Of a stretch of 41,195 nucleotides of DNA, positions 33,297 through 38,198 are shown piece by piece. Under the pieces are notes generated by a model. The model did not search any database, was not told the origin of the DNA, and worked only from the letters and a program-made list of their open reading frames with translations. Positions within the stretch are counted from its first letter, which is position 1. Every line of letters starts with the position of its first letter. The position numbers and the translations under genes were made by a program. Source of the DNA: Puniceicoccaceae bacterium K14 (GTDB taxonomy: Bacteria; Verrucomicrobiota; Verrucomicrobiia; Opitutales; Opitutaceae); contig JAKYXN010000046.1 in the NCBI GenBank assembly GCA_022538095.1, positions 1-41,195 of the forward strand. The letters are read 5' to 3'.

Positions 33297-34103
33297 TTAA
33301 TCTATGTATTCCACAGTATTGTTACGGAAGGCGCTAACGAGCTCCTTGTTGCTAGTAAGGCCGAGCTTTTCGCGAGCGATGGAGAGCTGTCGACTGACAG
33401 TATCGCGTCGTACGTTTTTGGTTTTGGCGATGTTACTTACGCTGGATCCCGAACTTAGTTTTTGCAGGAGAATAATTTCTCCGGTACTGAGTTTCGTGAT
33501 GTTGGCCAAACCATACGTCTCTTCGAAGAGTGTCGCAATTGCATTGGCTTTCTTTAGAGCGTCTTCCCGTTGATGGATGGATTTTGCGACGAGGGCAATT
33601 GCATCGCCCGTCAGTTTTAGAAGTTGGCATTCGTGTTTGCTGAAATCGCATAGACGGCGATTGAGTGAGAGTATAAGCTCTGCAGATGAGGTCGTCGCGA
33701 AATGATACACGGCTTGGTAACAGGCATCCAGATGTGAATAGACTTCTTTAAAAAGCGGGTTTTGTTTGAAGTTAGCTTGGGTTTGGTAATTGGAAAGAAC
33801 GTGTACTTCCTTGCCAAGCCCCTGCCAGTCAAGTCGGCGAATTACTGGATGGAAGTCTATCGTTTCACCAAGAATTGGTAGAAGCGAGGCCATGGCTTCA
33901 GTGTAAGGCGAATTCGTTTCTATCCGCTTCGGGTATTCGAAGCCTGGGCTCCATTCGTTCCAACAAAGGCAGTCGCTTGGAATCAACTGCAATAGATGTT
34001 GCAAACTACACTCAATAAGCTCTTCCCAATGTATGATTGACGAAATGTCGGTGTAGAAAGAGCGTGAAATAATGAAATCACGCTCCCTAATCTGGTGTTG
34101 CAT
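33297..34103 (-). CDS. LuxR-type HTH regulator with GAF-like N-terminus
   Basis: This 268-residue protein has an N-terminal ~180-residue sensor-like region, probably GAF-like from its alternating strands and helices (SIIHWEELIECSLQHLLQLIP to VAKSIHQRED). A C-terminal LuxR HTH (about 206-262) has GEIILLQKLSSGSSVSNIAKTKNVRRDTVSRQLSIAREKLGL. The HTH order matches LuxR proteins, although the first helix lacks the usual LTxRE motif. No ligand is known. It is the upstream gene of a same-strand LuxR pair, with AT-rich decayed DNA before it. Confidence 0.8.
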   Translation of the reverse strand: MQHQIRERDFIISRSFYTDISSIIHWEELIECSLQHLLQLIPSDCLCWNEWSPGFEYPKRIETNSPYTEAMASLLPILGETIDFHPVIRRLDWQGLGKEVHVLSNYQTQANFKQNPLFKEVYSHLDACYQAVYHFATTSSAELILSLNRRLCDFSKHECQLLKLTGDAIALVAKSIHQREDALKKANAIATLFEETYGLANITKLSTGEIILLQKLSSGSSVSNIAKTKNVRRDTVSRQLSIAREKLGLTSNKELVSAFRNNTVEYID

Positions 34104-34576
34104 CGATTTTTTTAGAGTAGAATTTTTGACAAATCAAAAGAAATTCCCTGAATATTTCAAACTAAAAATTGGCATAATTACCTAAGAGTGCAACATGTTT
34201 TTACGTAGTGCGGATTTATTGTTAGGACTTTCGAATATGTTGATTTTACCTGTGGTTTTGCTGAGACCCGTTAAGTGGAAACTTAGACCGCTTAACGCCT
34301 CTTATCCTGCTACAATTGGTCTACTTGGCGGGCTCGTAAATCAGCGTAATTCTTCGCTGGGGAGTCGAACTCTATTGGTGAAGTAGGCAGGGGCCTTTTG
34401 CAAAACCTACCATAAGTAGATATCGCCGAGATATCCATAACGAACTATCTCGGAGATAAAGCCCGGTGTCGCAGCTTTCATTGCTGAGACCAAAGACAAT
34501 ACTTGGCTTAGTAAAGACTTCCATGACGTAATAGCGAAAGAGGACAGCGCTTTGAGAATGTACGCAGAGAAAATAG
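34104..34576. other. Non-coding/decayed stretch with two palindromes
   Basis: No convincing gene. A 63-codon frame at 34195-34386 has no family resemblance. Two inverted repeats stand out: a 10-bp stem with one mismatch or G-T pair (34269-34278 with 34288-34297, around CGTTAAG/CTTAACG), and CCGAGATA/TATCTCGG (34426-34433 with 34446-34453). Upstream of the LuxR gene, TTGACA at about 34126 could be a -35, but a good -10 was not found. Confidence 0.35.
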
Positions 34577-34831
34577 GGTGCGATTAAAAGTGTGTCCTGC
34601 AAAAAATCGCTTTCTTCGCATTTTGTTAGCGCTTTCGTCTGAAAAGTGTGTATATGGGGTAGTCGATGAAAACCATACGCCTGAAGATCCCCGGAGCTTG
34701 GAGCCTAGAAAACGCAAGCAACTTAGCGCGTTCTCAAATCGCGATGAAAAACGACGAGCTGGAGGATTATTGGAAAAGCCAAGGTCATGCTAAAGTGGCA
34801 TAAACATCCAGGACACACTTTTAATCGCACC
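34577..34831. mobile_element. 255-bp element with perfect 23-bp terminal inverted repeats
   Basis: The first 23 bases (34577-34599, starting GGTGCGATTAAAAG) are the exact reverse complement of the last 23 (34809-34831). The 209-base interior carries a 45-codon ORF. No transposase is present, so this is most like a miniature inverted-repeat element or the remnant of one. Clear target-site duplications are not seen: the left flank ends in AAATAG and the right begins TGGTAA. Alternatively it is a large RNA hairpin. The family is not recognised. Confidence 0.65.
34666..34803 (+). CDS. 45-aa ORF inside the inverted-repeat element
   Basis: An ATG at 34666, with GGGG about 6 bases upstream as a ribosome-site candidate, opens a 45-codon frame ending five bases before the right repeat. 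The peptide begins MKTIRLKIPGAWSLEN and ends with EDYWKSQGHAKVA. It is hydrophilic, predicted helical, mixed in charge and without membrane segments. A second, longer out-of-frame ORF (34578-34793) overlaps it. No family is recognised; coding is uncertain. Confidence 0.35.
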   Translation: MKTIRLKIPGAWSLENASNLARSQIAMKNDELEDYWKSQGHAKVA

Positions 34832-34919
34832 TGGTAATGGGGCATATAAATTTGGCTTCAGACTAGCATTTAGAATTGTGGAACAGCCTATTAAGGGAGG
34901 CCGTTGCTAAGATGGGAAT

Positions 34920-35121
34920 TTAGATCTTTACAGGTGGAATATCCTTTTTCGGCATATCGATTGATTGGTCCTGTTTAATTTGGTTGCTTGGAGTGCTTAG
35001 TTTCTGCCCAATGCGAAGTCGACGAAGATCAATGCCAGGTATTTGGTTTTATAAGCCCAACAACGGAAATGTTGTGTCATTGAGTGATCTTTGAGAGCGT
35101 ATCGCTAGCCAAGTTATGGCA
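34920..35121 (-). pseudogene. Decayed LysM-domain gene, C-terminal end
   Basis: Reading leftwards from about 35121, the codons give a LysM domain: SDTLSKITQ, then an in-frame TGA at 35077-35079, then HNISVVGLIKPN. A one-base excess at about 35040 is followed by PGIDLRRLRIGQKLSTP and a short tail to the stop at 34920-34922. The GDTLSxI...HNxSVxxLxxxNPGxxxxxLRIGQKLxxP pattern of LysM is unmistakable across the two frames. The gene is broken by a stop and a frameshift. A minus-strand frame at 35126-35371 with a signal-like start may be its 5' part. Confidence 0.72.
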
Positions 35122-35906
35122 TCTTTCAATAAAATATCTGTTTCTTGAAGCCAGTCGAAATAGAACTGCTCTTCTTTTCCTTCCCCTTTCCGTAGGCGGG
35201 TCCGTCGCTTGTACGAGTGCTCAATCCACAGCAGGTCACCGTGGTAAAAGAGCTATCATTCATATTGTATTCATTATCTAAGGGCGACGTTTTTACGATA
35301 TAGGAAATTGAAGTGCCACCAAAAGTTGAAAAGAAAAGGTTGAAGGCATAGCTAAGAAAACCTCTCTCCATTTTTATCGAATTATTTATGTGACTTGTGA
35401 TTTGGTGGATAATTTCAGAGGCTCCGGGCTACGATTGTGAGTTTCTGCACTAGGATACAAGGGAAGAATGACTGGTTCTTTAGAAGTGTTATCCCAGCTT
35501 AGCCTGTTTGCCGGGCGAGTGTTGGGCTTTTGAAACTAGCTAGGAGTCGTGTCGATTTATTCGGAGTAGGTGGATAGGATTGGAGGTATTTGTGAGTTGT
35601 TGAGAGAAGTGTGTGTATTCATTATGTGGGTGCTGACGAGATGAGGGACCATGTTTCTCGTTGATCTATGTTTTTTGACAATTTTTTGGATCCGACATTC
35701 TTTGTATTTTCAGCATTTTAGATTGGGTCGGGTGGAAATTAGTGATTTAATGAAAAATGTGACTGTATCTTTTTAAGTATGGCCAGGCAATTTGATTGAT
35801 CAAGGTACTGAATTGTTGGACGACTTATCTATACGAATTTGATGATTGATTTTTTCCTTGGCTATGAGGGGGACGTCCTACTTAGTCGGTATAGTCTCTT
35901 TTTACA
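35122..35906. other. Non-coding or decayed stretch before the ankyrin gene
   Basis: About 785 bases without a supported gene. Small frames at 35084-35281 (+) and 35126-35371 (-) lack family content; the latter begins MERGFLSYAFNLFF and could be the start of the decayed LysM gene. TTGACA occurs at about 35676 on the plus strand, about 230 bases before the ankyrin gene, without a good -10. No RNA gene was seen. Confidence 0.35.
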
Positions 35907-38198
35907 ATGAAGGTTTACCCCGTTTTTTTGTTACTTTTCGTTTCTTTGACTCAATTTGCTGCAAGTGAGGTTGATCTTATTTACAGTGTCTCTGGTAAAG
36001 AGTATTTGATTAGCTCGTTCGAAGAAGGGTTGCCCAAGTTGGATGATAATTCTTTGGATACAGGAAAATCATTGAATGGAACTGCAGGTTTTGGTTGGAA
36101 TTGGAGAGGGGCATTGCCCGTTGACTTAAACTATGCTTGGCCGATTCCATTTTATGAAATCCATGAAGCTTCTAAGAAGTACGGAGAATCTGAAAAAACG
36201 AAGACGGCTCGTTTGAATATCCCAGGTAATTTGGATTTCTTACCATGGAGCCAGGAATATTTAGACAATGGGTTACTTGTTTTTGGGTGGGTAGTAGGCG
36301 AAGAAGTGGTTGATATTGTTGTGTCGAGTGTTAACGCGGCCGGGCGGTATGAAGCTGGCTTGAAATTGAATTTGGAGCGTGATATTGAAGAAGGGTACTT
36401 TTTGTTGTGGTTAGTTCGGGATGCTAATTTAGTGAAAAAAACAGAAACACTCCCTTACGAGTGGGCTGCAATTGATGGGAATGAGTCGATTTCCAAAATT
36501 AGTGATGCTTTGAGGTCGAAGGATGTATTTGGAAATACAGCACTTCATTTCGCTGCGTTGAATGGTCATGTTAATATTGTTACGGAATTGCTAGATAGAA
36601 AGGCGAAAAGAAACAGGGAAAACAATTGGGGAGAGATTCCGTTAGCCCTGGCAGCTAGAAATGGAAGATCGGATGTAGCTCAACTGTTGTATTCCGAAAA
36701 AGCAGCAATCGGAAGCCTGGCCAAAAATAATTCATCTTGTTTGTCAAAGGCCGTGGGGAACGGCCATTTCGAAGTCGTTAAAATACTCGCTCCAAAACCT
36801 CCAAAGTCCGGAATCGCGAAAGGAGAGTATTCGCATTCGGCTGTACTAGCGATTAGGCAAGGAAGAGAAAATATCGCTATTTATCTATTAAATCATAAGG
36901 CTAAAGTTGAGCTAACGAACAAGGACAAAAAGGAATCTACCATTTTCAGTTTGTTTTTAAGTGGGTACCCGAGCCTCGCTGAAGTCTTAATAGAAAGATT
37001 TGATGGAGAGTCTATATACGACCGTAAGGGGCATACAATAATGCATGCCATTGCACCCTACTCGGATATAGAGCTTTTGAACAAATATAAAGACATCGGC
37101 TTAGGGGTGAGCGTTACGAATGAGAAAGGACTAACACCATTGGATATAGCCATCGCATACAGTAATTTGCAGGCGATGTGCTGGTTTATTGAAAACAAAG
37201 AAGATAACGATCTTGGTGCGAATTTAGTAGATCCGGTACACAGGGCAGTTGGGCTTGGAAAAGAAGACTCTTTGCACTGCCTCATTGATTATGGATACAA
37301 TGTAAATGTAGTAAATGATAAGGGACGCAATCCATTGATGGAAGCGGTCTATATTGGAAATGGCAAAATAGTAAACTCGTTGATAGACGCGGGAGCTTAT
37401 TGGGAAGTCGATCACGCTGATTTCGATGAATGTGCAGCGTTGGCGATCCAGATGAATGAGGCAGCCATCTTGGAATCTATGATTTCGCAAGGTCTTTCCA
37501 AGGATGCTCGCTTGTTTAATTATTGGACTTTGAGTTATGTAGCGAAATTCTACCAAGCGGAGGATGTCCTGTCATGGACTCAGGATCAAGGCATCCCACT
37601 GGAATCTGAAGACACTTTAAAATCGGGAGATTTGGATACACCTATGAAGGTGAAATCGATTGGTAAAGTTGGCTTTAGCGAGGAGATGCAACGGAAATTT
37701 GGGAGCACCGAGGCGGATGTTACGATTCTAGTAAACAAACTAGGGGAAATCTGTATGAGCCGATATGCTGTAAACACTCCGAAAAGTATTCGATCAGCAG
37801 TTGATAGAGCGTTGTTTGAAGGACAATATTCACCAGGCATCAAAAATGGTGAGCCGGTTAATACTGTAACGCGGTTTAAAATACCTCTCAAGGTTGAATT
37901 AAAGGAAGACGTAGTGTTTGAATTAGATGAGTTGGATGAAAAGCCAAAATCAGTTTTCCAAAGAGCACCGAGATTCCCTTATGCTCTTAAACAAAACAAT
38001 GTGAAAGGTTGGGTGGATCTAGAATGGATAATTGAAACGGATGGTTCTGTTAGAAGAGTCACTGTACTGAGGTCTTCTCATTCGGGATTTAATCAACCAA
38101 GTGTTGAATCAATCAAAGCCTCACGGTGGAAACCAGGGAAGTTGAAAGGTAAGGCAGTAGCTTCTAGAGTAAGGCAGCGAATTACGTTCAATCGCTAA
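35907..38198 (+). CDS. Exported ankyrin-repeat protein with TonB-like C-terminus
   Basis: This 763-residue protein has a signal peptide (about 1-20, cleaved near AAS). An uncharacterised 180-residue region follows, then roughly ten ankyrin-like units (about 204-560, e.g. FGNTALHFAALNGHVNIVTELL, IPLALAARNGRSDVAQLL, GRNPLMEAVYIGNGKIVNSLI, some degenerate), then a linker. A TonB C-terminal-like domain (about 686-763) has RAPRFPYALKQNNVKGWVDLEWIIETDGSVR and the closing SRWKPGKLKGKAV and RVRQRITF. Free TonB-like domains without an N-terminal membrane anchor also act in other envelope proteins. Role is unknown: perhaps an envelope scaffold, or binding of periplasmic partners. Codon use resembles the neighbours. 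Confidence 0.82.
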   Translation: MKVYPVFLLLFVSLTQFAASEVDLIYSVSGKEYLISSFEEGLPKLDDNSLDTGKSLNGTAGFGWNWRGALPVDLNYAWPIPFYEIHEASKKYGESEKTKTARLNIPGNLDFLPWSQEYLDNGLLVFGWVVGEEVVDIVVSSVNAAGRYEAGLKLNLERDIEEGYFLLWLVRDANLVKKTETLPYEWAAIDGNESISKISDALRSKDVFGNTALHFAALNGHVNIVTELLDRKAKRNRENNWGEIPLALAARNGRSDVAQLLYSEKAAIGSLAKNNSSCLSKAVGNGHFEVVKILAPKPPKSGIAKGEYSHSAVLAIRQGRENIAIYLLNHKAKVELTNKDKKESTIFSLFLSGYPSLAEVLIERFDGESIYDRKGHTIMHAIAPYSDIELLNKYKDIGLGVSVTNEKGLTPLDIAIAYSNLQAMCWFIENKEDNDLGANLVDPVHRAVGLGKEDSLHCLIDYGYNVNVVNDKGRNPLMEAVYIGNGKIVNSLIDAGAYWEVDHADFDECAALAIQMNEAAILESMISQGLSKDARLFNYWTLSYVAKFYQAEDVLSWTQDQGIPLESEDTLKSGDLDTPMKVKSIGKVGFSEEMQRKFGSTEADVTILVNKLGEICMSRYAVNTPKSIRSAVDRALFEGQYSPGIKNGEPVNTVTRFKIPLKVELKEDVVFELDELDEKPKSVFQRAPRFPYALKQNNVKGWVDLEWIIETDGSVRRVTVLRSSHSGFNQPSVESIKASRWKPGKLKGKAVASRVRQRITFNR

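Follow-up and report, generated by a model that had tools for sequence, protein, structure and literature searches.

A 255-bp inverted-repeat unit in a Puniceicoccaceae genome is very probably an internally deleted remnant of an ISKra4-family insertion sequence

Introduction

A short unit with perfect inverted ends and a single small open reading frame (ORF) lies in a contig of Puniceicoccaceae bacterium K14, within the 41,195-nucleotide stretch of DNA that was analysed as a whole (hereafter, the window). This architecture raises the question of whether the unit is a mobile element, a gene for a small protein, or what is left of something larger. A preliminary description of the window had proposed a self-contained unit, either a candidate MITE with its own small protein or a hairpin-protected small-protein gene. 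That it is a self-contained unit of the mobile type proved correct, and its family is here identified as ISKra4, also called p-MULT 4.

Results

The unit and its surroundings

The two 23-nucleotide arms (34577-34599 and 34809-34831) are 100% complementary and are separated by 209 nucleotides, and they enclose a 45-codon ORF, as had been described. When the whole window was scanned for inverted repeats that are perfect over 12 nucleotides or more and spaced by less than 400 nucleotides, only two emerged. The other is an 18-bp repeat at 18-105, near the left edge, which is the second longest in the scan. By simple arithmetic, approximately 2e-7 perfect 23-bp repeats at such spacing would be expected by chance in 41 kb.

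As read from its arms the unit measures 255 bp (34577-34831). It is better bounded at 34576-34832 (257 bp), because the tips of related elements read GGGTG. The tip position just outside the arms carries an extra G at the left, and an A takes its place at the right when read on its own strand. The ORF is open throughout and stops 5 bp before the right arm, rather than exactly before it as was first thought. An in-frame TAG, noted by eye, occupies positions 34660-34662, two codons upstream of the ATG. The features are collected in Table 1.

Table 1. Coordinates of the unit's features and of the left-flanking frame, in window positions.
Feature	Position	Strand	Remarks
IRL, left terminal inverted repeat of the predicted IS remnant	34576..34599	+	GGGTGCGATTAAAAGTGTGTCCTG; first G outside the 23-bp arm
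Probable 5' leader of the former transposase gene	34600..34665	+	Assigned by position; 94 other genomes gave no DNA match
45-codon ORF: Met-Lys-Thr plus, by homology, the last ~42 codons of a transposase of the ISKra4 family	34666..34803	+	
IRR, right terminal inverted repeat	34809..34832	-	23/23 to IRL; outermost base A, not G
Left-flank short frame	34453..34587	+	No family found; last residues and stop TAA (34585-34587) inside IRL

No clear gene is present in the 1.8 kb around the unit (34104-35906). To its left is an ORF on the minus strand (33297-34103) with a weak LuxR-type match (GerE, 18.3 bits, below the cut-off of 23.5), and to its right is a plus-strand gene (35907-38198) that encodes ankyrin repeats and a TonB C-terminal domain. 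The short frames that flank the unit (the left one in Table 1 and another at 34833-34910) look like gene remnants. The left frame is possibly the remnant of a gene that was cut by the element, and its one match outside its own genome is weak (G062, E 0.008; 2 of 57 genomes). On reading, this match does not lie in a convincing gene frame. The right frame may resemble the last part of formylglycine-generating-enzyme-like proteins, but a search of 38 genomes returned nothing except the frame itself, and Pfam gave no match. Insertion upstream of a promoter is reported for part of the ISKra4 group in the consulted part of the survey of these elements (PMC3942029). This idea found no support here, as only 2 promoter-like sites are present in 34100-35910 and 3.3 are expected.

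The small ORF carries the tail of a transposase

By itself, the 45-amino acid peptide matches no NCBIfam family (including NF033572) and no Pfam family at E up to 1. When 141 related genomes were searched with it, matches at E up to 1 were found in 11 genomes, its own among them. The top three non-self matches (G062, E 2.2e-4; G068, 8.3e-4; G277, 0.0023) prove on reading of the loci to be the C-termini of one kind of transposase, and the weaker matches have E values of 0.02-0.8. The 165-amino acid C-terminal piece from G062 matches the NCBIfam model for the ISKra4 family transposase (NF033572) at positions 257-422 of the profile with an E value of 6.6e-40. Its 137.5 bits are below the 205-bit cut-off for the whole protein, as this piece is a fragment.

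Six aligned tails share the invariant pattern R.K..G..W...NA, and a YW is common to the window peptide, L012 and L031 among the alignment rows that reach so far. A profile was built from 39 non-redundant tails with the window left out; these came from 67 tails extracted by script from the best 80 of 115 relatives (genome_contigs, five-piece alignment A2). Against this profile the window frame scores 29.1 bits (E 4e-8), whereas the next best of the 1239 window frames reaches only E 0.38. In a shuffling control, the best of 2000 shuffled peptides scored 10.3 bits and the peptide itself 29.2.

Homology extends from about residue 4 or 5 (RLKIPGAW) to residue 42 of the ORF. In the transposase this point comes right behind a conserved IESxH motif, whose Glu is presumably the last catalytic residue, and the catalytic core is thus absent. 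Judged by this homology, the ORF from approximately residue 4 onwards is the C-terminal tail of a transposase of the ISKra4 family (p-MULT 4). The frame had been put forward as the unit's own small protein, or as a small-protein gene protected by a hairpin, and is instead a lost transposase's tail behind a start codon.

The ends and layout match those of complete elements

The best 80 of 115 relatives in genome_contigs come from Opitutales, other Verrucomicrobia, proteobacteria and cyanobacteria, among others, and the ends of 69 of these 80 were examined. Complete relatives typically end in GGGTG[C/T][G/A]ATT.AAAGTG, with deviations. The window arm reads GGGTGCGATTAAAAGTGTG and the ends of L053 and L087 read GGGTGTGATTAAAAGTGTG, such that the right ends of these two elements are identical to the window arm at 17 of 18 positions. 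In a genome of the same order as the window's organism (G068), two elements have left ends that read GGTGCAAATAAAAGTGCGGGG, and on a third contig a matching tail is followed by the same right end. We looked between -15 and +60 nucleotides of the stop codon for an end that agrees with the window arm at no fewer than 13 of 18 positions. Such an end is present for 25 of the 39 non-redundant tails; at a control distance the count is 3 of 35. The other 14 tails have no end that matches at 13/18. The stop codon is 10 nucleotides from the end in the window and -10 to 33 nucleotides from it in the 25 matching tails. The preliminary description had suggested looking for a larger copy with a transposase; in other genomes there are complete elements with matching ends, and a transposase with a matching tail.

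The start of the ORF is placed in a similar way. Its ATG is 91 nucleotides from the left tip, and by our reading the first ATG of the upstream ORF lies at 60-102 nucleotides in 13 of 17 relatives (the remaining four have it at 119, 140, 202 and 513). Because of this agreement, the ATG is likely to be the start codon of the parental transposase, and the peptide probably joins this original start, in frame, directly to the tail and lacks the catalytic core. The junction left by the deletion is probably located at the 3' end of the leader or immediately beyond it.

For the analysis of size and target-site duplication, 18 elements whose two ends formed a plausible pair were picked by eye, with L055 and L057 among those dropped. 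These complete relatives measure 1270-1577 bp (n=18). In 15 of 17 relatives the transposase is encoded in two overlapping ORFs, by our reading with a -1 offset in 10 and the other offset in 5, and the remaining 2 are single or unclear. The two-ORF elements with a -1 offset are L053, L057, L065, L071, L074, L076, L082, L085, L086 and L026. The last of these, from an Opitutales genome, has a run of A at the ORF overlap, which suggests programmed frameshifting there also. The element L078, from an Accumulibacter MAG, is 1270 bp long, has one long ORF and is flanked by a 9-bp duplication without mismatches, and it possibly arose through an internal deletion that joined both ORFs; L076, also from Accumulibacter, measures 1503 bp.

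The unit is a single copy without a detectable parent

The organism's own assembly comprises 5.72 Mb in 358 contigs and is 97.4% complete. It contains no second DNA copy of the whole unit, and the arm, with 3 mismatches allowed, matches nowhere else in it; the multiple copies that would have supported a mobile family in the preliminary description were thus not found. Three one-mismatch matches to the arm core are present in this genome, and a reversed-pattern control gave 0. No DNA match to the unit was found in 94 other genomes, which include no other member of the same genus, or in plasmid or phage collections. With at most one mismatch, the arm core occurs in 2 of 384 genomes, namely the organism's own and G348 (one mismatch), and an arm pattern has no match in genome_contigs or viral_contigs.

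Matches to NF033572 are present in 21 of the 141 related genomes, two of them above the cut-off. No ISKra4 transposase was detected in the organism's own genome, either by the NF033572 search or by a scan with the C-terminal alignment; the scan returned one match (E 0.126) with an internal stop, which we took as a chance hit. Neither the 94 genomes nor genome_contigs yielded a complete copy of exactly this IS. In viral_contigs, 24 stretches fit the transposase peptide pattern and tblastn confirmed 0 of them. The assembly being fragmented and 97.4% complete, there may be a parent or a further copy that was not assembled.

A likeness of the ORF's first residues had suggested a remnant of a RAYT (REP-associated tyrosine transposase). 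This candidate was rejected, as the organism's own PF01797 loci lack the arm core GTGTGTCC and the peptide search leads to ISKra4. There are four PF01797 (Y1/RAYT) matches in this genome, at three places (L004, L005 and L006/L007; G000 C349, C36 and C314). One match has an in-frame stop, and the loci are unrelated to the 255-bp unit.

No target-site duplication is present

Duplications of 8 or 9 bp are made by p-MULT elements, according to the consulted part of PMC3942029. No 8-9 bp duplication is found at the unit, where 3 of 9 letters are alike. Among the 14 relatives for which both flanks are available, 10 have a 9-bp duplication (9 perfect, one 8/9) and the other 4 lack one. In G012, both copies of an ISKra4-type element that is less closely related have 8-bp duplications, as judged by eye. 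Because the unit lacks such a duplication, we describe it as a remnant of the ISKra4 family and not as an intact member. In principle, a transposase supplied in trans could still recognise the ends of the unit, but none is detectable in the genome, and the unit is most likely immobile at present.

Discussion

We are highly confident that the unit is what an internal deletion has left of an insertion sequence of the ISKra4 family (p-MULT 4), and that it is non-autonomous. The parent would have belonged to a subgroup whose complete members found here are 1.3-1.6 kb long and mostly encode the transposase in two overlapping ORFs. An internal deletion would then have removed some 1.0-1.3 kb between the region of the start codon and the last ~42 codons, while both ends, the leader, the ATG and the tail with its stop codon were kept. 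The simplest account is one internal deletion with a chance in-frame join of start and tail. Assignment as a derivative of this family draws on transposase homology, found in the tail alone, and on terminal inverted repeats that fall within 18-39 bp and match the ends of relatives. A complete DDE transposase, which an intact member would carry, is lacking, and the sole remaining part is that which follows IESxH.

The preliminary suggestion of a MITE holds for the origin of the unit, as type I MITEs are internal deletions of IS elements in the consulted part of PMC6382973, and here such a deletion has left the ends in place; it does not hold for copy number, or for the flanks with their missing duplication. 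A MITE family in the strict sense, present in many copies and moved in trans by a resident transposase, would account for arms that are identical at 23 of 23 positions and for the type I structure. However, we consider it improbable, given the single copy and the lack of any detected ISKra4 transposase in the organism's own assembly, the empty DNA search of the 94 other genomes and the absence of a target-site duplication. From the single copy, the undetected transposase and the missing duplication, it follows that the unit is most likely a stranded one-off relic and not part of a multicopy MITE family.

Perhaps the frame is nevertheless a small-protein gene with a long hairpin that protects or regulates it, and the peptide has a function such as that of a transposase-derived regulator. 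The frame is unbroken from ATG to stop, and the unit folded as RNA has a z score of -4.2 relative to shuffles, a signal most likely owed to the 23-bp stem. However, the peptide is by homology the tail of a transposase, its start and stop are placed about as they are in the relatives, the stem consists of IS ends, and a scan by consensus found no promoter-like site on the plus strand from 34100 to the ORF. We therefore regard this as very improbable. Even harder to credit is the idea that the 45-residue start-plus-tail peptide still has an activity for which it was kept, for example that of a dimerisation decoy or trans regulator that counters incoming ISKra4 elements. A known RNA family or tRNA-linked element was also dismissed, as the window contains no Rfam match at the gathering threshold and no tRNA.

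An origin other than a single internal deletion within a single element is unlikely; in that case the unit would have been assembled from separate decayed copies, or a deletion would also have taken one flank. Such events could explain the missing target-site duplication and a right tip base that is unlike the left one. However, the arms are identical over 23 bp although the inner parts vary between relatives, and the order IRL-ATG-tail-IRR and its spacing are as in complete elements. A loss of one flank after the internal deletion would leave the reading as a deleted ISKra4-family element unaffected.

The ISKra4 family corresponds to p-MULT 4 and comprises the groups ISAzba1, ISMich2 and ISKra4, and p-MULT terminal inverted repeats measure 18-39 bp (consulted part of PMC3942029). 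The unit resembles this family in its transposase tail, its 23-bp inverted repeats and a tip that is a G/C pair, as in relatives; the two overlapping ORFs described there for the ISMich2 group are likewise seen in many relatives here. In the unit itself, the deletion has removed the region in which the -1 frameshift of the ISMich2 group would lie. It differs in the loss of the ~1.0-1.3 kb that held the catalytic core, and in being a single copy without a target-site duplication. Verrucomicrobiota is absent from the phyla listed for p-MULT 4 in the consulted part of that survey, and a full-text literature search that paired 'ISKra4 family' with 'Verrucomicrobia' returned no paper. The present analysis records this lineage in Opitutales and related Verrucomicrobiota genomes. 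Among the literature that pairs 'ISKra4' with 'MITE', no title reports an ISKra4-derived MITE.

Because no Pfam or NCBIfam model reaches the 45-amino acid frame, routine annotation would probably call it a hypothetical protein, or nothing at all. Type I MITEs such as MITEAba12 (consulted part of PMC6382973) are likewise small and non-autonomous; they come from an IS that lost its interior and retained the parental repeats. In contrast to these, the unit is a single copy, has no detected parent in its genome and retains a transposase remnant that runs from start to stop. The enterobacterial elements RU-1 to RU-3 are also short, of the mobile type and equipped with an open frame, but they occur in many places (consulted part of PMC2759123), whereas the unit occurs once and its frame is of known transposase origin. 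Thus, what is otherwise an ordinary internally deleted IS remnant can resemble a self-contained small-protein gene.
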